Part shown: piece after piece, positions 2,224 through 15,271 of the stretch
Layout of the letters: every line of letters starts with the position of its first letter
Position numbering within the stretch: position 1 is the first letter of the stretch
Source: Bacteroidota bacterium
GTDB lineage: Bacteria; Bacteroidota; Bacteroidia; Flavobacteriales_F; PHOS-HE28
DNA length: 42,872 bases
Direction: 5' to 3'
NCBI GenBank assembly: GCA_018267055.1
Contig: JAFDZF010000174.1
Coordinates: 1 to 42,872, forward strand
Notes under the pieces: model-generated
The model's input: the letters and a program-made list of their open reading frames with translations, nothing else
Told to the model about the DNA's origin: nothing
The model's database searches: none
Translations under genes and position numbers: made by a program

Positions 2224-3363
2224 GTGACCCTTGGGATATCGCTCCTGGCCGGTGTCGTCGGTTGGCTGGTGATGGCCGCACGCAACCTGGTCGCATTGGC
2301 TCCGGTACGGAAGGCCCGGGGTGTGCACTGGAGCGACCGCGCCCGGTCGCTTTGGCCGGTCCGTACCGGTGCCGCGTTCATGCTCTATGGGCTGCCTTTC
2401 ATCATCGGTATCGGTATCCCTTTCCTCCACCACCCGCTCCAGCGCGTGGTCTGTGGTATCGCCGTTTTCTTCGGGGCCATGCTGGGCACCTTTTCCATCG
2501 AGCGCACGGTGAGGCCCGGCCTTCAGTGGGGGCATTGGGTACGGCAAGCGCTGGCCGCCCACCTCCCGATCTTCATCCTGGCGGTGAACCTGGTCTTGGC
2601 GATACTGCTCATGCCGACGCAATTCGGGCCCAGGATGGCATGCGTGGTCGTGGTCCACTTCACCGTCCGATACTTGTTCCTGGCCGGTATCCACTATCGG
2701 GTGTTGCGGTGGGTGGGCCTGTTACGGCCGGCAGGAGAGCGGCTTCGCTCCCTTGTCACAGCCACTGCCCTGGGTATGCAGCAGCCGGTCCCCAGCACCA
2801 GCGAGCAGCAGAGCGATGTGGCGCAGGCATGGGCATTGCCGCTCCAGCACGAACTGATCTTCACCACGGGCTTGTTGGCCATTTGCACGGATGAGGAGGT
2901 CGGGGCCGTTGTTGCACATGAGATGGCCCATTTGTCCGAATCCCGGGCGATGCTGGCGGGACGGATCCTGGCCTGGTCCCTTCCCTCCATGCTCATTTTC
3001 ATTCCGCCGATGGTGCAGTGGTCCGGGCCTCCAAGTGCCATCCTCCTGCTGCTCGTTTATTTCCTGGCGCATCGTGCATGGCAGCACTACAGTAAGCGGA
3101 TGGAGGAACGGGCGGACAGGGCCGCAACGGCAAGCGAGCAGGATGCAGGGGCATATGCCAGGGCTTTGTGCAAGATCTACGAGGCCGACCTTGTGCCTGC
3201 CGTTAACGCGGGCAAGCGTGCCTCCCATCCGGACCTCTACGACCGCATGATCGCAGCTGGGGTCACGCCGGACTTTCCTCGACCGGCCAAGCCGGAGCAT
3301 GCCTCCTTTGTAGGCGTTGCCTGTTTGGTGCTGCTGTTCATAGCCGTGCTGCTGTACCAGTGA
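2224..3363 (+). CDS. M48-family membrane metalloprotease
   Basis: This is a probable zinc metalloprotease of the Ste24/HtpX (M48) group, acting at the inner membrane. In 379 residues there are hydrophobic segments near 1-18, 50-70, 76-92, 113-131 and 362-378. The zinc site HEMAH is at 232-236 inside AVVAHEMAHLSES, and a likely third ligand is Glu294 in MEERAD (family pattern ExxAD). Two further hydrophobic segments between 255 and 285 separate these motifs, as in HtpX-like proteins. The start is a GTG; it is supported by a TATCTCTG box (one mismatch to TAnnTTTG) four bases upstream and by the membrane helix that begins at once. The gene is divergent from the nitrobindin-like gene. Confidence 0.85.
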   Translation: MTLGISLLAGVVGWLVMAARNLVALAPVRKARGVHWSDRARSLWPVRTGAAFMLYGLPFIIGIGIPFLHHPLQRVVCGIAVFFGAMLGTFSIERTVRPGLQWGHWVRQALAAHLPIFILAVNLVLAILLMPTQFGPRMACVVVVHFTVRYLFLAGIHYRVLRWVGLLRPAGERLRSLVTATALGMQQPVPSTSEQQSDVAQAWALPLQHELIFTTGLLAICTDEEVGAVVAHEMAHLSESRAMLAGRILAWSLPSMLIFIPPMVQWSGPPSAILLLLVYFLAHRAWQHYSKRMEERADRAATASEQDAGAYARALCKIYEADLVPAVNAGKRASHPDLYDRMIAAGVTPDFPRPAKPEHASFVGVACLVLLFIAVLLYQ

Positions 3364-3486
3364 GCATCGGGTGACGGGCCGCAACGGGTCCCGGTCCACG
3401 CTTCGGTCTTGTAACGGTGGGGCCTTCCGCTTGCGCCAGGTAGGGTGCATGCCTGAGCGATCCGGAGCCGTTCGCGGGCGGGCACG

Positions 3487-3516
3487 AAAAAGCCCCGGTG
3501 GTCACCGGGGCTTTTC
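3487..3516 (-). terminator. Rho-independent terminator of the fibronectin-III-like gene
   Basis: A stem of ten base pairs (AGCCCCGGTG with CACCGGGGCT) has a very short centre. Read on the minus strand it is followed by a run of T residues. It lies about 20 bases beyond the stop codon of the 206-residue protein gene. Confidence 0.85.
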
Positions 3517-3537
3517 GCAAGAGGGGCGGTGGTGCGC

Positions 3538-4158
3538 TTACGCCGCGCGGCCCAGGGCCGGGTCGCACTGGGCGCCTTCGCCGGCGGTGCCGATGGCGCT
3601 GACGCAGAACCAGTAGGCCTTGTAGGGCTCCAGCTCCGTTACCAGGTGGGTGGCGCGGGTGGTGTAGCCCACGGCCTGCCAGTTCTTGCCCATGGCCGGG
3701 TCCTGGTCGGTCATCCACACCTGGTAGCCGCGGGCGCCGTACACCCTGTGCCAGCGCAGCTCCAGCTGGCCCTGCAGGCCGGTGATGCGGGCCTCCATCT
3801 TCTGGGCCGTGCCGGGTATGCCGATGGGCGTGGGCTGCTTCGCCAGCTCGAAGCCGCTGCCGGCCAGCTTGGCCGCATCGCCGTTGCACACGCTCCGCAC
3901 GTAGTCGGCCTGCGCGTGCAGGGCCACCTTGCAGCCGCCCAGCACCTTGTTGCGGGCCAGTTTGCTGGTGCGGCTCCCGTTGGTGGCCGCCTCGATGGCC
4001 TGCTCCAGATCGTCCGCCAGCGTGGTCATGTCGGCCAACGGCACCAGCGGGGTGGTGAAGTCGGCATTGCCCGTCATCTTGGCCACTGTATTGCGCATCA
4101 GCGCCAACACGACCACCGGACGGAGCTTCGAGAGCGAAAGCTTGATGTTCGCTTTCAT
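3538..4158 (-). CDS. Fibronectin type III-like domain protein, 206 aa
   Basis: The C-terminal half (about residues 115-200) reads as one fibronectin type III-like module: ELRWHRVYGARGYQVWMT, then a Tyr/Thr strand, then LEPYKAYWFCVSAIG. The N-terminal half (about 1-100) is helical and Ala/Leu-rich, without a signal peptide. Proteins of this size with a single Fn3 module after a helical region are frequent in Bacteroidota, and their role is unknown; surface or cell-wall binding is often assumed but is not shown here. The gene has its own terminator at 3487-3516. Its upstream flank holds the palindromic motifs and 66-bp repeats described separately. Confidence 0.75.
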   Translation of the reverse strand: MKANIKLSLSKLRPVVVLALMRNTVAKMTGNADFTTPLVPLADMTTLADDLEQAIEAATNGSRTSKLARNKVLGGCKVALHAQADYVRSVCNGDAAKLAGSGFELAKQPTPIGIPGTAQKMEARITGLQGQLELRWHRVYGARGYQVWMTDQDPAMGKNWQAVGYTTRATHLVTELEPYKAYWFCVSAIGTAGEGAQCDPALGRAA

Positions 4159-4261
4159 GGTGTTCGGGCGTTTGTTGGTCCGGGCGCCCAGCCGGGGGTT
4201 AAGTGGTTATGGCCGCTGCAACGGCGGGCCTGGCCGGGGCGGTTGCGGGGCAGGCGCGCCC

Positions 4262-4275
4262 ATGCCGGGCGGCAT
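4262..4275. repeat. Short inverted repeat ATGCCGGGCGGCAT, copy 1
   Basis: The arms ATGCCG and CGGCAT flank a two-base centre. An identical copy occurs at 4346-4359. The first half resembles the ATGCCGCCC start of each 66-bp repeat downstream. Confidence 0.6.
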
Positions 4276-4345
4276 AGCGTCCGGTGTTCGCGGACCGGCG
4301 CCTACAGCGAAGTATGGTGCAGCGCCATGCCGCATGGAATGATCC

Positions 4346-4359
4346 ATGCCGGGCGGCAT
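4346..4359. repeat. Short inverted repeat ATGCCGGGCGGCAT, copy 2
   Basis: Identical to the element at 4262-4275, 84 bp apart. Both lie between the fibronectin-III-like gene and the 66-bp tandem array, and could be degenerate outliers of that array. Confidence 0.6.
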
Positions 4360-4400
4360 GCGGCCTGGCGCGGCCGGTGGTATGCCCGTCCACGTGCTCC

Positions 4401-4836
4401 ATGCCGCCCGTACCCGAAGCCTGATGCACCCGGATGATGCCCATCCTCCACCCATCCTATGACCCCATGCCGCCCATACCAGAGGCCTGATGCACCCGGA
4501 CGATGTCCATCATGCACCCATCCCAAGGCCCCATGCCGCCCATACCCGAAGCCTGATGCACCCGGACGATGCCCATCCTCCACCCATCCCAAGGCCCCAT
4601 GCCGCCCATACCCGAAGCCTGATGCACCCGGATGACGCCCATCCTCCACCCATCCCAAGGCCCTATGCCGCCCATACCAGAGGCCTGACGCACCCGGATG
4701 ATGCCCATCCTCCACCCATCCCAAGGCCCCATGCCGCCCATACCAGAGGCCTGATGCACCCGGACAATGTCCATCCTCCACCCATCCCAAGGCCCGATGC
4801 AACCCATACCGATAGCCTGATGCACCCGGACCACGC
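4401..4836. repeat. 66-bp tandem repeat array, six full copies and one partial
   Basis: The unit starts with ATGCCGCCC at 4401, 4467, 4533, 4599, 4665, 4731 and (degenerate, ATGCAACCC) 4797: exactly 66 bp each time. The copies differ at a few positions (CCCGAA or CCAGAG, ATG or ACG, CCC or TCC). Because 66 is divisible by three, several frames stay open on both strands for 150-235 codons, so open frames here are not evidence of coding. No spacer separates the copies, so this is a minisatellite and not a CRISPR array. Each full unit contains a seven-codon ATG-to-TGA micro-frame. Function unknown; copy number probably varies between strains. Confidence 0.92.
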
Positions 4837-4900
4837 CGACCAGCAGCCCTACCGAAAGCCCGATGCCACCCGAAAGGAGAGGAGCAAACCCACGCACAGC

Positions 4901-4980
4901 CCGCCGCTTGGCCCTTGCCACCTGCCCCTGCCAATTGCCCCTGCCACCTGCCCCTGCCGACCGCCGCTTGCCACCTGCCT
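4901..4980. repeat. Low-complexity CCTGCC-rich tract with a 60-bp direct repeat
   Basis: CCGCCGCTTG occurs at 4901-4910 and 4961-4970, and CCACCTGCCCCTGCC-type words recur in between. The tract follows the 66-bp array and ends just before the XRE regulator stop codon. No gene is supported here. Confidence 0.6.
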
Positions 4981-4992
4981 TTTCCCCTCACA

Positions 4993-5235
4993 CTACGCCG
5001 GAAAATCACGCAGCACCTGCTGCACCAGCTCCGCCTGCGTGCGGTAGGGGTGGGTCAGGTGCTCGTGGGTGCAGTGCAGCACGCGCAGCAGGCGCACCAC
5101 GGTGGTGTAGCTGGGTTCGCGCAGCCCTTCCTCAATGCGGCTCAGGGTGCTTTGGGCAATGCCCACTTCGCGGGCCACATAGTGCTGCTTGTATCCGCGC
5201 AGGGTGCGGATGGTGCGGATGCGCGTGCCTACCAT
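4993..5235 (-). CDS. XRE-family helix-turn-helix regulator, 80 aa
   Basis: This small DNA-binding protein has one Cro/C1-type helix-turn-helix at about residues 14-34 (YKQHYVAREVGIAQSTLSRI), followed by EEGLREPS and helices that complete the five-helix fold. The C-terminal 20 residues may be a short dimerisation helix. I chose the ATG at 5235 because the fold begins at once; longer in-frame starts at 5295 and 5376 would add a basic, Cys-containing leader without family similarity. It is divergent from the RadC-like gene across 261 bp that holds an inverted repeat at 5351-5385, so it may control both genes. Such regulators often sit at the edge of mobile or defence loci. Confidence 0.8.
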   Translation of the reverse strand: MVGTRIRTIRTLRGYKQHYVAREVGIAQSTLSRIEEGLREPSYTTVVRLLRVLHCTHEHLTHPYRTQAELVQQVLRDFPA

Positions 5236-5350
5236 GGGGGTGCCTTGTGCTCGTACGCGGGAGGAGCAGGCGGCCGCGCGGTGTAAGTGGTGCATGAATG
5301 TAGGCGCGTGCCGCGGCCCGGCGCGTACCGCCTTCCCGGTAATTTCCGTT

Positions 5351-5385
5351 GATCGAACGAACGGTGTTTTGTTCATAGTTCGATC
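5351..5385. promoter_or_regulatory. Candidate operator: inverted repeat GATCGAAC / GTTCGATC
   Basis: Perfect eight-base arms (5351-5358 and 5378-5385) are separated by 19 bases of AT-richer sequence, between the divergent XRE regulator and the RadC-like gene. This is a typical place for an XRE operator overlapping a promoter. Binding is inferred only from position and symmetry. Confidence 0.4.
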
Positions 5386-5496
5386 TTGCGCCGGCCGATC
5401 GCGGGAACCATATTTGGCCGTATCGCATGCGACGGAAAACCTGCCAGCCGGCAGGCAGGGCCGTCGGACCAGCGATCCGCCCTATCCCCCCGTGCC

Positions 5497-6201
5497 ATGA
5501 CCATCCGCTTGACCAAGCAACAGCGCACCCGCATCCTCAACAGCACCGACCTGTATACCGTGATGCAGGCCATCTTCCGGCGCGAGCAGAAGATCGATCG
5601 CAACCGCGAGCACTTCTGGATCATGGGCCTGGCCAATGACCATACGTTGCTCTTCGTGGAGCTCATCGGCCTGGGCAGCATCCGCCGCGTGGGCGTGGAG
5701 CCCATGGACGTGTACAGCCTGGCCCTGCAAAAGCGCGCCGTGCGCATCGTGCTGGTGCACAACCACCCCAGCGGCAAGCTGGTGCCCAGCGAGGAGGACA
5801 AGGACCTTACGGACTACCTCATCCAGGTGGGCGTGTTCGTCAACGTGCCCGTGCTGGATCACCTCATCATCTCCGAAACGGCCTACTTCAGCTTTGCCGA
5901 TGGCGGCCTGCTGGAACAGTTGCAGGAGAGCCGCAAGCATGTGCTGCCCTACCAGGAGCGTTCGCGGCTGCTGAAGGACATCCGGACCAGTGAGGCTCGG
6001 GGGGAGGCAAGGGGGCTTGAGGCTGGTGAGGCTAAAAAGGCGAATGCGATAGCCTTGGCCATGAAGGCGAAAGGCATCGAGGTCGGCGTCATCGCCGAGG
6101 TCACTGGGCTTTCGGTGGCGAAGGTGAAAGGCCTCAAGTTGCCGAAGGCAAAGGCTGCGGGTTCAAAGGCTAAGGCGAAAGGCTCAAAGTCCAAGACATA
6201 G
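5497..6201 (+). CDS. RadC/JAB-domain protein with helical C-terminal tail
   Basis: The central part (about residues 20-140) is a JAB/MPN metalloprotease-type domain as in RadC: VHNHPSG at about 87-93, then acidic residues (SEEDKD) and the closing strand VLDHLIISE. It lacks the helix-hairpin-helix domain found at the N-terminus of standard RadC. The C-terminus differs: a repetitive EARGEARGLEAG stretch, then a helix pair (IALAMKAKGIEV, IAEVTGLSVAKVKGL) like the tails of Rpn/PD-(D/E)XK transposase-family proteins, then a Lys/Ala/Ser-rich end. The ATG at 5497 is preferred to an upstream TTG at 5386. RadC-like JAB proteins are common in mobile and defence-associated DNA; the biochemical role is unsettled. 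Confidence 0.85.
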   Translation: MTIRLTKQQRTRILNSTDLYTVMQAIFRREQKIDRNREHFWIMGLANDHTLLFVELIGLGSIRRVGVEPMDVYSLALQKRAVRIVLVHNHPSGKLVPSEEDKDLTDYLIQVGVFVNVPVLDHLIISETAYFSFADGGLLEQLQESRKHVLPYQERSRLLKDIRTSEARGEARGLEAGEAKKANAIALAMKAKGIEVGVIAEVTGLSVAKVKGLKLPKAKAAGSKAKAKGSKSKT

Positions 6202-6214
6202 ATAGGAGGGCGTT

Positions 6215-6940
6215 ATGGATCGTAAGGGCATGGCAGTGAGTATTGGCAAACGCATACTCACGGCGGATCAACGCAGTTCTTGGGGCGGCCTATCGCCGGC
6301 CCCGGCTACCAGTTGCTATTGGTCCGTCCATTATCGCGAACGGGTTATCGATGTCCTTCGAGCAAGAGCCCGATACTTGGTCGATACCACTTACATGTTC
6401 GCTCACTTCGAAGAATACCTGCGACAGAAGCGGTCGGACAGACCGGAGGATAAGTGTGAAGTCTATTGGACGGCCGAGTATTATGAAAAACCGATGGACC
6501 AGATCCGCATCATTGCAGCCGTCGAGAATTCACTTAAAGCCATGATGCTGGAGAGAGGATATATGGTGCACTATATCCGGGAAGCGGAAGACACTCGCCA
6601 CTTTGCTAAGATGCAAGCAGAGGGCCGCCCCGTTCCTATTGATGATTTTCTGCTCGTCCGAGACTTCATGACGGATGTCTATACCCATCATCCGGTTTTG
6701 GAGGGGCTAAGGAATGAGTGGAAAACCATAGAAGCGAAGCATTTGCTGATGGAACCGCTGACCACCCTGTTCAATATGGATGAGCAGTTCGTGCACCTAT
6801 TGAAGCGAATCCAGCGTGATAGGAACAGGGTGCACTTCATGATCGACTATCCCGGTGCGCATCGGGTCAATCAGTATATCGATGAATGGACTTTCGTGCG
6901 TGATCAATGTCGCTTATTGACGGAATCTGAGAAGCACTAG
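6215..6940 (+). CDS. Possible HEPN-like helical protein, 241 aa
   Basis: I do not recognise a named family with certainty. The protein is predicted mostly helical, with no signal or membrane segment. The segment AAVENSLKAMMLERGYMVHYI (about 101-121) resembles the helix pair of HEPN proteins, and RDRNRVH at 201-207 fits the HEPN nuclease signature R-x(4-6)-H. It starts 13 bp after the RadC-like stop and has a strong ribosome site (TAGGAGG, seven bases before the ATG), unusual in this window, where most genes lack one. The base composition is less GC-rich than the core genes. It is probably co-transcribed with the RadC-like gene. HEPN RNases act in toxin-antitoxin and abortive-infection systems; that role here is inferred. 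Confidence 0.65.
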   Translation: MDRKGMAVSIGKRILTADQRSSWGGLSPAPATSCYWSVHYRERVIDVLRARARYLVDTTYMFAHFEEYLRQKRSDRPEDKCEVYWTAEYYEKPMDQIRIIAAVENSLKAMMLERGYMVHYIREAEDTRHFAKMQAEGRPVPIDDFLLVRDFMTDVYTHHPVLEGLRNEWKTIEAKHLLMEPLTTLFNMDEQFVHLLKRIQRDRNRVHFMIDYPGAHRVNQYIDEWTFVRDQCRLLTESEKH

Positions 6941-7112
6941 ATCTTGGTCGGAGCCGAGATAGGGGCTGTAAGACAGGGTGGGCTTCAGGTGACATCAAGT
7001 TTAACGGCGGACGTCATAGAGTTGACTGTGCACTCAAATGCCATAATCGAAAATTGAGCTAGCACGTCAGGAAGATTCTCAATCGACAAGCGGATAGTGC
7101 GATTCTCGTCCT

Positions 7113-7865
7113 CTAGGGCGGAGGGTGCTCTGAGAAAGAGCCTGCGGGAGGAAAAGCTATGACCGGCGGTTCCGTGTCGTCCCTAGTTGCAGGCGTCGGT
7201 GGTCCTTCTTCTCTGGGGTATGTTCGGTCCCAGACAGGAGCAACGGCTGGAAATCGCCTTTCTAGCTCCTCTGCCATCTTACTGTCAATCTCAATAGTGC
7301 AACCCACAATCATGTCCTGATAAGTCCTTAATTCATCGATGGTGATATTTCTTGCTCGATTTCCATTGTGAGCAACTGCACCACGGTCTGAAATGAATTG
7401 GTTGATTTGCGCATATCCTTCATCAGTCCAGAATCTGGAATATTCATCCATGCCGAAATAGGAATGGAACAACATATTCAAGTTCTCTCGATTTGGAGTA
7501 TTCAATGCCTCGGTTTTTTCTGTGGCATAGGCAAGCCACATATTCTTCCATCCATTATCTGCCAAAAGTATAGGGGATAGATCATTCTTATCCTGCTTAA
7601 TTCTTCGACTTATCGTCTTCTTTACAGCAGTGGGCAAATCGGTTGCACTAGCAGTTTGATCTTGTGCTAGGCGAATTACCTCTAACAACAAGTCTTCGTT
7701 GTATCGTTCCCATGCGGCACAGAGCATAACCATTGCACTGCGAACGAGGTATCCTAATTGTGCTTCTTCGATTCCTTGCGAATTCATGAAGTTATAATGC
7801 GCAGCAATGAGCCTACGAGCGTCAGTTCGCATTGACTGAAATGTGCCATATGCGGTGCTAGGCAT
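7113..7865 (-). CDS. HEPN-domain protein (RiboL-PSP/MAE_28990-like), 250 aa
   Basis: The opening helices, including LVRSAMVMLCAAWERYNEDL at about 40-59, match the HEPN subfamily named RiboL-PSP or MAE_28990/MAE_18760-like. The catalytic-type motif is R161-GAVA-H166, which fits R-x4-H. The C-terminal 45 residues are Pro/Glu-rich and probably disordered. Family members are metal-independent RNases or their inactive relatives, often in defence and toxin systems. The gene lies 11 bp downstream of the DUF1508 gene and is likely co-transcribed with it. Composition is strikingly AT-rich for this genome (22 of 60 bases are G or C at 7441-7500), a sign of recent transfer. Confidence 0.75.
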   Translation of the reverse strand: MPSTAYGTFQSMRTDARRLIAAHYNFMNSQGIEEAQLGYLVRSAMVMLCAAWERYNEDLLLEVIRLAQDQTASATDLPTAVKKTISRRIKQDKNDLSPILLADNGWKNMWLAYATEKTEALNTPNRENLNMLFHSYFGMDEYSRFWTDEGYAQINQFISDRGAVAHNGNRARNITIDELRTYQDMIVGCTIEIDSKMAEELERRFPAVAPVWDRTYPREEGPPTPATRDDTEPPVIAFPPAGSFSEHPPP

Positions 7866-7876
7866 CGATACTGGTC

Positions 7877-8203
7877 TTAGGCTAGGTCGATTGCATTTGC
7901 CATGAGAGCGATTCTCTTAACTGCTTCAACTCCATTATCGCATGCGTGAATTGTTGAGTATACTCCGCTCCTTCCTATTATTTCGCCGTTTGATGCGACT
8001 ATGCTGAAGTAGTATCCTGAGTGAGTTTGATGACGTCGATAGGAGGTGTCGTATGGAGCATTGCGTCTAACACTATCAATCCTCCTAAGCAATGAGGCCT
8101 TGGTGGTGTATCCTTCACTAGCCAAGATGGGCTCGCCGTTGTCTGCGAGCAATCGATATCGATATTCTCCTATTCTGTCGCGGAAGACTTGAAATGTTGC
8201 CAT
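7877..8203 (-). CDS. YegP-type protein with two DUF1508 repeats, 108 aa
   Basis: Two copies of the roughly 48-residue DUF1508 unit are visible: FQVFRDRIGEYRYRLLADNGEPILASEGYT in the first and GYYFSIVASNGEIIGRSGVY in the second, each followed by a helix. This is the YegP arrangement; the family function is not known. The ATG at 8203 is preferred to an upstream in-frame start at 8239 because the domain begins immediately. It is the first gene of a probable two-gene unit with the HEPN gene 11 bp below, and shares its AT-rich composition. DUF1508 proteins do occur alone in core genomes, so a shared job with HEPN is an inference from spacing. Confidence 0.85.
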   Translation of the reverse strand: MATFQVFRDRIGEYRYRLLADNGEPILASEGYTTKASLLRRIDSVRRNAPYDTSYRRHQTHSGYYFSIVASNGEIIGRSGVYSTIHACDNGVEAVKRIALMANAIDLA

Positions 8204-8272
8204 GTGCTTGAGAATAGAGGAGTCCTCTTTCGGTCTCAATAAAGTTTCGCTTGCAAGTTGGCGAAACTGGTC

Positions 8273-8397
8273 TTACAGCGCTCCCTTAAAGAACCGCGCT
8301 ATATACCCGGTGCTCTTCGCTACAGCTCTTCGGGCATGCCGACGAACACCACCGTGCTCTGGCTTCGCCCGCCTCAGGCCTCAGGTTGATCAGGTGA
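8273..8397 (-). pseudogene. uvrA 3'-end remnant
   Basis: The last 40 or so codons of a uvrA gene, read on the minus strand. Its end encodes STGYIARFFKGAL then a stop, against [13 protein letters not shown] at the end of the intact uvrA at 12386. Nucleotide similarity runs on through the TPEEL and GGTVVF region to about 8397, then breaks off. One base is missing near 8318-8325 compared with the intact gene, which shifts the frame, and stop codons follow upstream. The rest of uvrA is absent. It differs at many positions from the local uvrA, so it is an old duplicate or foreign in origin. Confidence 0.82.
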
Positions 8398-8486
8398 CTA
8401 CTGGCAGCCGGTCCAGCCTATGGTTTCTTCACCTGGCCTGATTCGGCATAGTACTTCTTTGCTTCGTGCAATCATCCTCACAGACG

Positions 8487-8502
8487 CTCGGCTGCGGCCG
8501 AG
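8487..8502. repeat. Hairpin CTCGGC / GCCGAG
   Basis: Six-base arms with a four-base loop, extendable by one G-T and one C-G pair. A closely similar but perfect ten-pair hairpin lies at 10634-10657, downstream of the AbiC-like gene. The shared sequence suggests a small dispersed repeat or related terminator. Confidence 0.5.
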
Positions 8503-8564
8503 TGCCCCATAGTGGGTCGTTCTTCTCCTGCATAGTCTCCGCTTTGGGCCCCGCGGAAGCGCTT

Positions 8565-8634
8565 TCACCGCATCGGCAGGATATCCCCACTCACTTCACG
8601 CACTACGCCCATAGCTGGGTCGCTGGCACTAATG
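8565..8634 (-). pseudogene. 3' end of a gliding-type C-terminal-domain gene (fragment A)
   Basis: Read on the minus strand, this encodes ASDPAMGVVREVSGDILPMR and a stop, clearly parallel to ASDPAVSGMRELSGYILLMR at the end of the intact secreted protein at 10911. Upstream of this point similarity stops where the 282-residue gene begins. The matching upstream part of the same domain is found at about 9588-9680, on the far side of that gene. Confidence 0.8.
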
Positions 8635-8642
8635 ATAGGAAG

Positions 8643-9491
8643 TCATCGATGCTTTGTCGAGGCAAGTGTTTGCAGTGACTGCATGACACGTTCATGCAAT
8701 TTCCCCTTCAAGTCATTCTTCCAAGTATCAAGGAAGTAGAACGTGTGGTGATCAGGGACCCAGCGCTTTCGGCTCTGCGGCCTATCCACCTGTTCCTTTC
8801 GGAATACATGGAAGGTTATACGGCCCGTCTCCCTGGGGTCGGCATACATGACCACGAGATCAAAGGCTTTGGTGAACTCCTTGACATTCCCATTCTGCGT
8901 TTCAGCGAACCCGAGGTTCCGCAGTCGTGCGATGGCCCATGCAAGTGACTCTTCGGTGCGTGGCGCATTTCCCCACCACAACTTGTCATCCAATAGTTCT
9001 GCCTCACTGCGCGGCCCCAGGCGATAAAGGGTCTCCCGTTCTCGTCTCGCAGCCTTGATAGCGCCCTGCTCGGCCTGATATTCCGTCTCCGCCTTCCGCG
9101 CAAACGGAAGCCAACTTCCTTTAGCGAGTTCGAATACGGCATTCAGGACGTCACATTGGTGCGCGTTACCCTCGCCCAACAGGTGCCTTCGCAAGCCGTC
9201 AGGCAGTTTGAAGCCTTCAGCATATGGGCCGGATGTGCTGCGTTTGCACAAGGGACAATTCACGCGCGGGCCTGAATAATGAGTCTCCACAGCGAGCGGC
9301 CAAGCGAGCTCGATCACGGATCCGGCCAAGGCCTCTTCCCATTTCCGCGCCTCTTCCCGCGTTTTTAGGCTATAGTAGGTATCGGCTTGAACAAGGATAG
9401 GCTCGGGTAGCAAGTGCAAGATCGTGTGACGTGCACTCCAGAGCTCGCTCTCAAGTTGTCGGATCTTTTCGTCTCGAGGATCAGTCCACAT
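8643..9491 (-). CDS. Hypothetical protein with a zinc-finger-like motif, 282 aa
   Basis: I do not recognise this family. An N-terminal helix (about 1-28) is followed by CPLCKRS near residues 79-85 and then His residues in GLRRHLLGEGNAHQC, a spacing compatible with a C2H2- or C2HC-type zinc site. The middle is charged and helical (AKGSWLPFARKAETEYQAEQ), and the end is basic and aromatic. No signal or membrane segment is present. The gene lies exactly between two pieces of a decayed gliding-domain gene (8565-8634 and about 9588-9680), so it appears to have arrived by insertion. Composition is moderately GC-rich. The zinc finger suggests nucleic-acid or protein binding, but no activity can be named. 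Confidence 0.7.
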   Translation of the reverse strand: MWTDPRDEKIRQLESELWSARHTILHLLPEPILVQADTYYSLKTREEARKWEEALAGSVIELAWPLAVETHYSGPRVNCPLCKRSTSGPYAEGFKLPDGLRRHLLGEGNAHQCDVLNAVFELAKGSWLPFARKAETEYQAEQGAIKAARRERETLYRLGPRSEAELLDDKLWWGNAPRTEESLAWAIARLRNLGFAETQNGNVKEFTKAFDLVVMYADPRETGRITFHVFRKEQVDRPQSRKRWVPDHHTFYFLDTWKNDLKGKLHERVMQSLQTLASTKHR

Positions 9492-9587
9492 ACTTGATGA
9501 CAGTTATAGGATACCCAATAGTATGAACTCCTGTGCCCGATCCCTGATGCGAGCGTCCTCCCCCCGTTGTTCAGTGCTCTTCCTCGC

Positions 9588-9680
9588 CGCAGGTCATTGA
9601 TGCCATCGCCATTGGGGGGGAAGGCATCGGACGCGTCCACCGGCGTGCGGCAGGCATCGGTGACGATGGTGGAGGGGGGC
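9588..9680 (-). pseudogene. Gliding-type C-terminal-domain gene, fragment B
   Basis: On the minus strand this encodes TDACRTPVDASDAF followed by PPNGDGINDLR, matching TDACRTPVYAPDAF and TPNGDGINDVW of the intact gene at about 11137-11212. After GINDL the similarity ends and sequence leading to the 282-residue gene begins; the final codons of the domain reappear at 8565-8634. About 55-60 codons of the domain are missing. The plus-strand gene that follows probably begins at 9705, and a longer reading of it from 9567 would run antisense through this scrap. Confidence 0.8.
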
Positions 9681-9704
9681 GGTGCGTCACAAAATCACTA
9701 CATC

Positions 9705-10610
9705 ATGGACCGCCCGACCGATGAAAAACTAATGAGGGTCTACCATACGTTGGATCGCGTAGCGCCGATACTTTGGCCCATGTTCTGGGTGTTATTGAGC
9801 ATCACCCTTGCCATTGTTCTTGTCTTCGGAGGGCTATTGGTAAAGCACCAGAGCATTGGCTGGTCCGGTCTGGACCTGGGTGCGACGTCGGCCACAGGAA
9901 CCTTTTGGGGGGGCGTGTTGGGCCCCTTGATCGGTGGGATTTCTTCGGTGCTTCTCATCATCACACTCTTGTTCCAGGCGAAGGAGTATGAGCTTTCGAG
10001 GGAGGAGCTGATTAAATCAGTGGCGGCGCAGGCCGATTCTGCACGAGCACACGAGCAACAAAAGGTCCTTTTGCAAGAACAGGTCGCGGACGCCAAGCGA
10101 GAGTCCAATCTGAACATGATCACATTGAGCATCCGGGAATTAAAAGAGGATGCCCGATCATTGGCGTCTGAGGGATTTGGTATTGCTGTATCCGGATTTT
10201 CCTCATTGGTTGCGAGCATTCATCGGTATGTATATGACAACCAAGCGGTGATCGTGGGCCGCGACTTCAACCAAGCAGGGAAACACATGTCCGTCATCTA
10301 CGTGGCCGTGGCGAAGGTCATCCTCATCGCGGATCGTGCACAACGGCTGTATGATGAGATCGGTACACTTGATCTGCCTCCTACCCAACGGACGATCCGG
10401 AAGGCGGATCTGATCATGTTCATCAAGACAGAGCTTACCCGCTTGAACACCGTTGCATTATTGTGGGAGATCCATCAGGCCATGGAGAACGCAAGGACCG
10501 AGTATCCAGGCAGCTTGAAATATCGGCAGCTTGCTACCGAACACTTGAAATCAACTGTGGACCGATTGATGGCATTCTCCAATATGGATTTCATTACGCT
10601 CAACCCGTAG
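9705..10610 (+). CDS. Membrane protein resembling putative phage abortive-infection protein
   Basis: The 301-residue protein has two N-terminal membrane helices (about 20-43 and 67-89), with GTFWGGVLGPLIGG between them, then a coiled coil (EYELSREELIKSVAAQADS, about 94-112 and on to 135) and a helical cytoplasmic part. This layout matches the putative phage abortive-infection family (PF16872, PutAbiC-like), by recall, not by a search. The ATG at 9705 is preferred; the in-frame start at 9567 would translate an antisense pseudogene stretch. The gene is less GC-rich than the core, stands alone, and is followed by a cluster of hairpins. Alternative: a membrane-anchored coiled-coil protein of unrelated role. 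Confidence 0.6.
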   Translation: MDRPTDEKLMRVYHTLDRVAPILWPMFWVLLSITLAIVLVFGGLLVKHQSIGWSGLDLGATSATGTFWGGVLGPLIGGISSVLLIITLLFQAKEYELSREELIKSVAAQADSARAHEQQKVLLQEQVADAKRESNLNMITLSIRELKEDARSLASEGFGIAVSGFSSLVASIHRYVYDNQAVIVGRDFNQAGKHMSVIYVAVAKVILIADRAQRLYDEIGTLDLPPTQRTIRKADLIMFIKTELTRLNTVALLWEIHQAMENARTEYPGSLKYRQLATEHLKSTVDRLMAFSNMDFITLNP

Positions 10611-10910: not shown

Positions 10911-12311
10911 TCACCGCATCAGCAGAATATATCCGCTCAGCTCCCGCATCCCACTCACAGCCGGATCACTGGCCCGCCCCCGCCAGGGGTAAAGGCCTGG
11001 GGGCATGGGAGCGCCGTCCACGGTGCCGTCCCACGCATCGGCCGCTTCCGCGCCTGTGCGGAGCACCCGGCCCCAGCGGTCGTAGACGCTCCACGCGATC
11101 GCCGCGCCCGGGTTGGCGCGCCATACCGGCCGCCACACATCGTTGATGCCGTCGCCGTTGGGGGTGAAGGCATCGGGCGCATACACCGGCGTGCGGCAGG
11201 CATCGGTAACGGTGATGGCGGCGGACGCAGCGCAATGCTCCGGCGCGTGGGCCTGCAGGGTGTAGGTGCCGGCGGCGTCCACGAGCAGTTCCGCGGTGGT
11301 GTCGCCGGTGGACCACTGCACCTGGGCAGCGGGCGGCTGCACCTGGGCCTGCAACAATAGGCGGGGGGTGCGGCAGAAGTCCACCGTAGTGTCCGGGGGC
11401 AGGGCCAGGGCCACCGGCGTGCCGGCCCGCACCACCAGGGTATCGGTGAGCGGGCATATGTCGTCCACCAGCTGCACGCTGTAGGTGCCGGCGGTATCCA
11501 CGTGGATGGAGGGGCCCGTGGCGCCCGTGGACCACCGGTAGTCCGCGCCGGGAACCGGGTCCAGCACGTGCAGGGTGGCGGCTTCGCAGAGGAGGAGGTC
11601 CGGGCCGAGCAGGGGCCGGGGCACGTGCCGCACGCGCACATCGTCCACATAGTAATAGCTGAACCAGGCGCCGGACCCGGTGGGCGGCATGGGCGCATAG
11701 CCCGTGGTGGCGCCGGTGTGGAAGTTGCCGATGGTGAGGCAGGCATAGGCGGAGTCCGCCGTGAAGCAGCCTTGGATGCGCATCCAGCCGCTGGTGTCGC
11801 TCAGCAGGGTCAGCGCCGTGTGGGCCACCTGCGGCGTGGCCGTGATGGTGAGCATGTCGGCGCGGTGCGGCGGCTGCACGCTGAACAGCGCGCCGATGTC
11901 GTTCACCGCATAGGCCGAGATGTCCGCGAGGTTCACGAAGAATTCGACCGCATAGGCCTCCCCGGGCACCAGGGGGGCGGCCAGCGGATGGCTGGCGTAT
12001 TCGTGGATGTCCGAAAGGGCGGTGTTCTCCGGGCCGTTGAAGCCGATGAAGCCCGCGTAGCCGGTGCCGCCGTGCGCGGGCTGGTGGCCGAACAGGTTGG
12101 TGGGCACGCTCACGGTGAAGGGGGCCCCCTGGCAGGCATTGAAGTAATCGGTGGATCCCGTGGTGGGCGGCGCCCAGCCGGTGGCGTGGTCCAGCTCGCC
12201 CATGAAGGCCGGACAGGCATCCCACTGCTCGAAGCCGCCATTGGGCACCAGCTCCTGCGCCCGCGCGGGGAGGAGGCCGCAGGCCGCGAGCAGGAGAGCG
12301 AACGGGCGCAC
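10911..12311 (-). CDS. Secreted protein with gliding-motility C-terminal domain
   Basis: A type IX secretion cargo of 466 aa. It starts with a signal peptide (about 1-18, cleavage after PARA before QELV), then a jelly-roll-like domain opening with LVPNGGFEQWDACP that often binds carbohydrate or the cell surface, with WFSYYYVDDVRV at its end (about 205). Two PKD/Ig-like stretches follow (YRWSTGATGPSI, VQWSTGDTTAEL). The last 90 residues are the gliding-associated C-terminal domain: FTPNGDGINDVW, VYDRWGRVL, AWDG and GLYPWRG are the standard motifs. The start is GTG. It lies 74 bp downstream of uvrA on the same strand. The domain ends in GYILLMR. Partial relatives of its C-terminus lie at 8565 and 9588. 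Confidence 0.88.
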   Translation of the reverse strand: MRPFALLLAACGLLPARAQELVPNGGFEQWDACPAFMGELDHATGWAPPTTGSTDYFNACQGAPFTVSVPTNLFGHQPAHGGTGYAGFIGFNGPENTALSDIHEYASHPLAAPLVPGEAYAVEFFVNLADISAYAVNDIGALFSVQPPHRADMLTITATPQVAHTALTLLSDTSGWMRIQGCFTADSAYACLTIGNFHTGATTGYAPMPPTGSGAWFSYYYVDDVRVRHVPRPLLGPDLLLCEAATLHVLDPVPGADYRWSTGATGPSIHVDTAGTYSVQLVDDICPLTDTLVVRAGTPVALALPPDTTVDFCRTPRLLLQAQVQPPAAQVQWSTGDTTAELLVDAAGTYTLQAHAPEHCAASAAITVTDACRTPVYAPDAFTPNGDGINDVWRPVWRANPGAAIAWSVYDRWGRVLRTGAEAADAWDGTVDGAPMPPGLYPWRGRASDPAVSGMRELSGYILLMR

Positions 12312-12385
12312 GGGGGGAAGACAGGGGAGGGCCGTGGGGGCGTTGCCCCGGCGCGCGTCAAGAGCGCTTCGGCCTCGCGCTGCCG

Positions 12386-15271
12386 CTAGAGCGCGGCCTT
12401 CAGGAACTGCGCCGTATGCCCGGTGCTCTGGGCCACCAGCTCTTCGGGCGTGCCGGTGAACACCACCGTGCCGCCGGCGTCGCCGGCCTCGGGCCCCAGG
12501 TCGATCACGTGGTCGGCCGAGGCGATCACCTCCTGGTTGTGCTCGATCACCAGCACGCTGTGGCCGTTCGCGATCAGCGCGTTCAGCGCCTTCAGCAGCT
12601 TGGCGATGTCGTGGAAGTGCAGGCCGGTGGTGGGCTCATCGAAGATGAAGAGCGTGGGCTTCTCCTCCTGCCCCTTGGTCAGGAACGAGGCCAGCTTGAT
12701 GCGCTGCGCCTCGCCGCCGCTGAGGGTGCTGCTGCTCTGGCCCAGCTTCACATAGCCCAGGCCGGTCTCCTGCAGGGGCTGCAGCTTGTCGATGACGCGC
12801 TTGATGGCGTTGTGCTTGCCCAGGTGCGCATGGAAGAAGGCCAGCGCATCGTCCACGGTGAGGTCCAGCAGCTCGGCCACGTCCTTCCCCTGGAACTTCA
12901 CGTCCAGGATCTCCTCCTTGAAGCGCTTGCCGTGGCAGGCCTCGCAGCGCAGGCTGATGTCGGCCATGAACTGCATCTCGATGTGCACCTCGCCTTCACC
13001 CTGGCACACCTCGCAGCGCCCGCCGTCCACATTGAAGCTGAAGAACGAGGGCTTGTAGCCGCGCACGCGGGCCACCTCCTGCTCGCTGTACAGCTGGCGG
13101 ATCTCGTCGTAGGCCTTCACATAGGTCACCGGGTTGCTGCGCGAGGAGCGGCCGATGGGGTTCTGGTCCACCAGCTCCACGGCCTGGATGCGCCCGATGT
13201 CGCCGGTGAGGGCCTTGAACTCGCCCGGGCGCTCGCTGAAGTTCTCCAGCTCGCGGCGCAGGGCGGGGTAGAGGATGCGCTTCACCAGGGTGGTCTTGCC
13301 GCTGCCGCTTACGCCGGTGACCACCGTGAGCATGTTCAGCGGGAAGGCCACGTCGATGTCCTTCAGGTTGTTCTCGCGGGCGCCCTTCACCGTGATGGTG
13401 TCGCGCACGGCCTTGCGGCGGGCGGGGCGGGCGATGCGGAGGCGGCCGGTGAGGTATTGCGCCGTCAGGCTGTCGCTGTCCATCAGCTCGGCGTGGGTGC
13501 CGCTGAACACCACCTCGCCGCCGTGCGAGCCCGCCTCGGGCCCCATGTCGATGATGTGGTCGGCGGCGCGCATCACCTCTTCGTCGTGCTCCACCACGAT
13601 CACCGTATTGCCCAGGTCGCGCAGCTGCTTCAGCACGTCGATCAGGCGGTGGGTATCGCGCGGGTGCAGGCCGATGCTGGGCTCGTCCAGGATGTACATG
13701 CTGCCCACCAGGCTGCTGCCCAGGGAGGTGGCCAGGTCGATGCGCTGCGTTTCGCCGCCGCTCAGGGTGTTGCTGCGGCGGTCCAGGGTGAGGTAGCCCA
13801 CGCCCACGTCGGCGAGGTAGCGCAGGCGGTTGGTGATCTCCTTCAGCAGGCGCTCGGCCACGGTGCGGTCGTGCGCGTTCAGGTCGATGCCCTGGAAGAA
13901 GGCCAGCGCCTCCGCGATGGGCAGGTGCACCAGCTCGGTGATGTCGCGGCCGGCCACCTTCACGTAGCGGGCCTCCTGCTTCAGGCGGGTGCCGTGGCAG
14001 AGGGTGCAGGTGGTCTTGCCGCGGTAGCGGCTGGCCAGCACGCGGTACTGGATCTTGTAGCTCTTCTGCTCGCAGTACTGGAAGAAGGCATCGATGCCGT
14101 GCACGCCCCGGGCGCCGTTCCAGAGCAGCTTGCGCTGGGCCTCGGTCAGTTCGCGGTAGGGGCGGTGGATGGGGAAGTCGTGCGTGGCGGCGGCCTTGAT
14201 GAAATCGTCCTTCCCCTCGCTCAGCTTCTCGCCGCGCCAGGGGGCCACCGCATCGTCGTACACGGAAAGCGTCTTGTCCGGGATCACCAGGTCGGCATCG
14301 ATGCCGATGATGTTGCCGTAGCCCTCGCAGCGCGGGCAGGCGCCCACGGGGTCGTTGAAGCTGAAGAGGTTCGGTGTGGGCTCCTCGAAGGTGATGCCGT
14401 CCAGCTCGAAGCGGTCGCTGAAGGTGAGGCGCTTGGGCTTGCCCTTGCCGTCCTCGCCCAGGAGCACGCATTCGCCCTGGCCCTCGAAGAAGGCCGTTTC
14501 GGCGCTGTCGGCCACGCGGCCCTCCACCTCCTCGTTGCCGGGGTCCACGGTGATGCGGTCCAGCACCAGGTGCCAGGGGCCGGCGGCCAGCTTCTTGGCG
14601 ATCAGCAGGTCGTCGATGCGCTGCACGTCGGTGCCGTCGTGCACGCGGGCATAGCCCTGCTGCTGCAGCACGTCCAGGTGCTCGCGCAGGGTGCGCCCCG
14701 CGGGCAGGTGGATGGGGCTGAGGAGCAGCACGGTGCCGTCCTTGGGGAAACTGTTGGCGCCGGCCACCACGTCCTCCACGGTGTCGCGCTTCACCTCGCG
14801 GCCGGTCACCGGGCTGTAGGTGCGGCCCACGCGGGCGAAGAGCAGCTTCAGGTGGTCGTACACCTCGGTGCTGGTGCCCACGGTGCTCCGCGGGTTGCTC
14901 GTCATCACCTTCTGCTCGATGGCGATGGCGGGGCTGATGCCGGTGATGCGGTCCACATCGGGCTTCTCCAGGCGCCCCATGAACTGGCGGGCGTAGCTGC
15001 TGAGGCTCACCACGTAGCGGCGCTGGCCCTCGGCGTAGAGGGTGTCGAAGGCCAGGGAGCTTTTCCCGCTGCCGCTCAGGCCGGTGATCACCACCAGCTT
15101 GCCGCGCGGGATGTCCACGTCGATGTTCTTCAGGTTGTGCACGCGGGCGCCGCGCACGCCGATGGCACCCGTAAGGGCGCGGCGCAGGGCGGCTCCCGCA
15201 CCGTCGGGAGAAGGCTTCACCGGGGCGGGGCGGCCGGTGGCGGGCGTTTTCGTGTCGATGGGGGCAGGCAA
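12386..15271 (-). CDS. uvrA: Excinuclease ABC subunit A
   Basis: UvrA is the damage-recognition ATPase of nucleotide excision repair. The sequence shows two ABC modules: Walker [10 protein letters not shown] at about 64-72 and GVSGSGKTT in the second half; signature segments LSGGETQRI and LSGGEAQRI; Walker [13 protein letters not shown] and [11 protein letters not shown]. Zinc-binding pairs are visible (CPRC, CTLC, then CEVC and CEAC). I propose the TTG at 15271 as start, giving 961 aa, near the usual 940-960; the ATG at 15379 would add 36 unmatched residues. Support: a TAAATTCG box ends eight bases upstream of this TTG, the spacing seen at other genes here. It is divergent from the ECF sigma gene. 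Confidence 0.95.

Follow-up and report, generated by a model that had tools for sequence, protein, structure and literature searches.

MNT-HEPN toxin-antitoxin systems consist of a small adjacent gene pair, one member of which encodes a HEPN toxin and the other a nucleotidyltransferase, and a tyrosine within the HEPN motif of these systems becomes modified. HEPN proteins of the RiboL-PSP type (PF18735) are described by Anantharaman et al. (2013; PMC3710099) as fused to endoRNase L-PSP and as encoded in an operon with ParB, and the main text of that article contains none of the terms YegP, DUF1508 and UPF0339. The YegP family (UPF0339/DUF1508, PF07411) is represented in the PDB by entries 2k8e and 2k49. 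Its E. coli member is called uncharacterized in a 2026 paper (PMC13373217), which also describes 57 cases of yegP homologues located downstream of the DNA-damage-responsive immune regulators capK-capS.

The window studied here, a stretch of 42,872 nucleotides on contig C82 of genome G000, harbours on its reverse strand a gene for a RiboL-PSP-type HEPN protein of 250 amino acids (7113-7865) and one for a DUF1508/YegP protein of 108 amino acids (7877-8203), the stop codon of the latter being separated from the start of the former by 11 bases (7866-7876); co-transcription of the two is probable. Like MNT-HEPN systems, the locus is a small adjacent gene pair including one HEPN gene, but the partner is a DUF1508 protein instead of a nucleotidyltransferase. 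No nucleotidyltransferase family was detected at E ≤ 1 (Pfam) in any of the seven proteins encoded at 5236-10610, and the gene required beside HEPN in the MNT-HEPN type is absent. Compared to the RiboL-PSP-HEPN proteins covered in the main text of PMC3710099, the present one lacks a fusion and has a DUF1508 partner. With the capK-capS-associated loci it shares the immunity-related setting of a YegP-family gene, while the passages of PMC13373217 devoted to those loci mention no HEPN partner. A literature search for HEPN together with DUF1508 or with YegP retrieved no report of such a combination.

We assign a probability of about one half to the reading that the two genes constitute a mobile cassette, rare in occurrence, which serves as a toxin-antitoxin or abortive-infection unit and combines a HEPN RNase with a YegP-family antitoxin or regulator. 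The observations underlying it are the membership of the HEPN protein in its family, the invariant R-x4-H motif, the recurrence of the pair and a similarity at the DNA level which keeps to the cassette. In such a cassette the HEPN protein would be a metal-independent RNase cutting RNA by means of R161 and H166 and would, once released, halt growth or abort infection. The co-expressed DUF1508 protein would either restrain it as a protein antitoxin or, as a regulator, couple it to a stress signal. The cassette is a variant on HEPN-based modules in which DUF1508 would be a new kind of partner.

The HEPN protein and its DUF1508 neighbour

The product of 7113-7865 scores 58.6 bits in the Pfam profile search against PF18735 (cut-off 28.4; E 1e-15) and contains an R-x4-6-H motif, R161-x4-H166, whose codons occupy 7368-7385 of the reverse strand. 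R161 and H166 are invariant both in an 11-row alignment of HEPN relatives sharing 13-29% identity and in a 6-row alignment of the paired HEPN proteins, on which the prediction of this motif as the active site is based. The profile score above cut-off and the conserved R-x4-H are features which the protein has in common with the RiboL-PSP-HEPN family. H166 is followed by N-G; the tyrosine which is modified in MNT systems is missing at this place.

The AlphaFold2 model of the HEPN protein, calculated with six aligned relatives as input, is all helical and has a mean pLDDT of 70.6. In VIA-align its top match is 8xdj_B (Z 10.3, rmsd 3.3 over 128 residues), with 8yuf_A (Z 9.9) and 6m6w_B (Z 8.9) among the further ones, all of them in the range below about Z 13 in which helical bundles may reflect only a common arrangement. 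Rows 1-2, 4, 5 and 8-10 are entitled HEPN toxin or toxin-antitoxin, the best ones being HEPN toxins of the MNT-HEPN type. Foldseek returned no match at E ≤ 0.001, and the HEPN profile, when compared with PDB sequences, hit designed helical proteins only. Hence, the HEPN-toxin-like fold predicted by the model agrees with the PF18735 profile yet does not stand alone, because its Z values remain below the caution level and Foldseek gave no match.

The product of 7877-8203 matches PF07411 in two stretches (102 bits versus a cut-off of 22; E 1.5e-29) and thus contains the tandem repeat which is also found in YegP. A profile built from the paired DUF1508 proteins matches both PDB entries, E. coli YegP (2k8e) with E 1.4e-33 and 2k49 with E 9.6e-33. 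Both proteins are therefore what the preliminary description of this DNA had taken them for, namely a HEPN protein with R161-x4-H166 and, 11 bp ahead of it, a two-repeat DUF1508 protein; motif and gap were recomputed and agree.

Recurrence of the gene pair

A scan of 84,980 genomes by means of a four-row alignment and one peptide pattern, a procedure of limited recall, yielded 30 HEPN relatives. According to a profile search of their loci, a DUF1508 gene lies directly downstream and on the same strand in five of them, and these are exactly the five closest (45-47% identical to the 7113-7865 protein, the next being 38%), which bears out the suspected adjacency of the two families. All five stem from Bacteroidota: Ferruginibacter, a Chitinophagales MAG, a Chitinophagaceae MAG, Flavobacterium limnosediminis and F. 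suaedae. No DUF1508 gene is present beside the other 25 within the flanks examined, which extend over less than 300 bases downstream in L127 and L137 and less than 350 bases upstream in L125 and L136. In a HEPN tree of 33 rows the 7113-7865 protein and the five form a clade (support 99/91). The HEPN protein of F. limnosediminis groups with those of Chitinophagales and not with that of F. suaedae, which suggests a transfer between lineages.

In four of the five recurring pairs the intergenic gap measures 5-19 bases, and in one (L110) the DUF1508 frame carries a stop right after its ATG. Compared to all five, the order at 7113-8203 is reversed, with DUF1508 coming first. In nine of the ten comparisons among the five, the similar DNA does not extend upstream of the HEPN start codon and breaks off within the HEPN or the DUF1508 gene; L109 and L110 additionally share the flank by rpoC. 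The pairs occupy four chromosomal places, i.e. beside rpoC (L109, L110), after glucokinase (L111), after a DitA-like gene pair (L112) and after uvrB (L113). As is expected of a type II toxin-antitoxin system, a small adjacent gene pair is thus found as a recurring unit at different places.

The combination is rare. When 51 HEPN and 40 DUF1508 loci were pooled, own loci excluded, HEPN and DUF1508 co-occurred only in the five mentioned. Among 147 relatives the HEPN gene is present in G000 alone, and among 279 genomes of one genus in a single one, which is L112 again (identical in coordinates to L147 and counted once). A phylum-wide search for the HEPN family matched 47 of 395 genomes, 27 of them over the cut-off; at the 30 loci obtained, one of which is our own, a DUF1508 gene appeared only at our own locus within 1.5 kb on either side, and a HEPN gene was likewise seen near the DUF1508 loci examined only there. 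Viral contigs gave one HEPN relative lacking DUF1508 and 24 DUF1508 loci lacking HEPN. The L109 HEPN protein, used as query, retrieved only the four plasmid records already found, and no phage match. On plasmids, solo HEPN relatives are not accompanied by any constant neighbour.

Two neighbourhoods among these loci may be described here. In L112 the cassette begins 176 bases past the DitA-like pair, two adjacent genes (2956-4454) which match the two halves of DitA and the second of which contains DUF5677. In L114 (6657-9003) a solo HEPN relative adjoins genes for Vsr, an HNH protein and a C5-methylase.

Conceivably, the pair is an anti-phage effector-sensor unit and not a toxin-antitoxin pair; DUF1508 would then respond to damage or to phage nucleic acid by activating, rather than inhibiting, the HEPN RNase. 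The 57 yegP homologues downstream of capK-capS listed in the passages of PMC13373217 cited above, the DitA-like pair beside the L112 cassette and the genes adjoining the solo relative in L114 are in line with this. PADLOC models, however, match neither the HEPN nor the DUF1508 protein at E ≤ 1e-3, and the neighbours come from chosen loci only; we consider this explanation decidedly unlikely.

Genes and scars surrounding the pair

The preliminary description regarded the whole of 5236-10610 as a candidate defence island set in DNA richer in AT than both flanks. The difference in composition was reproduced: GC content is 46% at 7001-8000 compared to 64-69% at 3001-6000 and 71% at 11001-12500, and the recomputed local values of 36.7% (7441-7500) and 73.3% (12421-12480) agree with those given before. 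Equally confirmed were the XRE regulator (HTH_3, E 2.1e-14) and the RadC-like protein with its JAB domain (E 2.5e-30), both encoded within 5236-10610. A direct repeat of seven copies (4319-4937, 66-base spacing, copies 65-90% alike) adjoins the XRE gene.

The remaining assignments held in part. In the 6215-6940 protein, which had been presented as HEPN-like, R201 and H207 of the R-x5-H motif are present as recomputed, but its HEPN nature was not confirmed: no HEPN profile matches at E ≤ 1 (Pfam), the best family match (E 0.011) is unrelated, and a single-sequence model has low confidence (pLDDT 44) with a best fold row of Z 4.9. At E ≤ 1e-3, neither 147 relatives nor 395 phylum genomes contain a relative besides the protein itself, the latter set yielding only short, weak matches (E 0.003 at best), and nothing was retrieved from plasmids (E ≤ 0.01), phages (E ≤ 0.1), viral contigs or PDB sequences (E ≤ 10). 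RadC of this type occurs only in G000 among 58 genomes (E ≤ 1e-25). A paralogue 53% identical to it (L190 46-1110, contig C163 of G000) has a gene of the PemK/MazF type after it, on the opposite strand. We have therefore abandoned the proposed unit of RadC and the 6215-6940 gene, as the second gene is devoid of relatives and the paralogue stands without it.

The protein encoded at 8643-9491, formerly termed zinc-finger-like, does contain cysteines 79, 82 and 113 and histidines 103 and 111, a weak indication, and matches no family at E ≤ 0.01. Its relatives are found in four plasmid records (30-34%), the three examined of which share no neighbours with the window, and it was dropped as part of a system. 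The 9708-10610 protein has two hydrophobic stretches fitting a membrane protein, as had been claimed; the resemblance to AbiC/PutAbiC was rejected, no Pfam or PADLOC family matching at E ≤ 1. Its one relative in 58 genomes (about 28-29%; G010, L151 6093-6722) adjoins unrelated genes, and plasmids and viral contigs contain none.

Several scars lie between these genes. A decayed copy of the uvrA 3'-end (8274-8396, reverse strand), situated just upstream of DUF1508, matches 12387-12511 with 80% identity over 125 columns (E 3.8e-24); its frame is broken, and it is closer to the uvrA of its own contig than to that of relatives. Fragments at 9585-9681 (83.5% to 11131-11227) and 8565-8627 (73% to 10911-10973) resemble the 3' part of the gene at 10911-12311, in which a profile search identifies a T9SS type B sorting domain that points to a Bacteroidota species as the probable source, and flank the 8643-9491 gene on either side. 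A 14-base repeat with 13 of 14 positions alike (7866-7879 and 8262-8275) flanks DUF1508, each copy beginning at a stop codon, that of DUF1508 in one case and that of the uvrA remnant in the other. It was considered as a mark of DUF1508 insertion, but repeats comparable in length and identity abound within these 1.7 kb, and it may be due to chance.

With decayed uvrA and T9SS copies between its genes, the patch is a mosaic which has grown stepwise. That it represents one multi-module defence island appears highly improbable. Its AT-richness and the fact that most of its genes are missing from relatives would fit an island, but DUF1508-HEPN is the sole recurring combination found, the uvrA and T9SS scars sit between genes, the RadC paralogue has no partner of the 6215-6940 type, and the only PADLOC matches at E ≤ 1e-3 over the island are helix-turn-helix models hitting the XRE gene. 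Of the several modules envisaged as the other option, DUF1508-HEPN alone survives, the RadC pair, the second HEPN protein and the AbiC label having found no support. On the reading preferred here, the XRE, RadC, 6215-6940, 8643-9491 and 9708-10610 genes are separate arrivals outside the cassette.

The place itself is variable. The uvrA gene and an ABC-transporter gene (2-751) are convergent, and the gap between them (to 12386) measures between about 24 bases and about 11.6 kb in the source contig and 23 relatives fetched from a set of 45 genomes (own left out); the uvrA match of G044, one of the 23, is only 55% identical. In two of the 23 (G038 and G003) next to nothing lies between the two genes, the match ends being about 24 and 34 bases apart, and in the other 21 the gap is occupied by one to three large open frames, of more than 1000 amino acids. 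In G028, G004 and G020 the two genes are on one contig, 47-64 kb apart. The notion of a defence hot spot at the 3' side of uvrA was dropped, no defence cargo being recognised in the 23 relatives, whose frames were judged without family searches.

The DUF1508 partner and its family

Most DUF1508 copies encountered are solo, in contrast to the one paired here with a HEPN gene, and solo copies are common, occurring in the genomes of 33 of 147 relatives. The protein encoded at 7877-8203 shares 55% identity with a solo copy on contig C177 of the same genome versus 30-44% with the five HEPN-paired ones. Two short fragments from L040 and one from L041 were removed ahead of the building of the DUF1508 tree, and L149 ahead of the clade tests. 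With 43 rows the five paired proteins do not form one group; with 42 rows they fall together (support 89/83, not starred). A six-row clade of these five and the 7877-8203 protein is compatible with the data (p-AU 0.114) but not established, and grouping the latter with the C177 copy fits the trees at least as well. Either the original partner may have been replaced by a local copy, or DUF1508 may have been recruited independently.

This affinity to a solo copy, together with the reversed order at 7113-8203, also suits a different explanation, in which the HEPN RNase acts in abortive infection on its own and DUF1508, a general stress or housekeeping protein, came to lie beside it by chance, a first time in the Bacteroidota clade and a second time, in reverse order, in our window. 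The 25 of 30 HEPN relatives whose examined flanks lack DUF1508 imply that this HEPN type can work alone, and the solo relatives on plasmids, without fixed neighbour, point the same way. Against such chance settlement, all five closest HEPN genes adjoin DUF1508, at four places and with similarity limited to both genes, and a gene settling twice independently next to one HEPN clade would in itself hint at a connection. We regard it as unlikely.

The reading as a two-gene toxin-antitoxin or abortive-infection cassette has, for its part, to reckon not only with the HEPN relatives lacking DUF1508 but also with the mostly solo occurrence of DUF1508, the rarity of the pair, its reversed order, the stop in the L110 DUF1508 frame and a structural match which is that of a helical bundle at Z of about 10. 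Going further, one may tentatively imagine, though we would hesitate to expect it, that YegP/DUF1508 proteins serve effector RNases either as antitoxins or as activators, that HEPN-DUF1508 is the first visible pair of this kind, and that DUF1508 was recruited more than once beside the same HEPN clade, in opposite orders.

YegP/DUF1508 is an old and widespread family with solved structures whose role is unexplained. The cassette ties this family to a toxin-like RNase and offers a direct two-gene test of the role of YegP. If the proposed reading is true, DUF1508 would be a new partner among the regulators of HEPN proteins.
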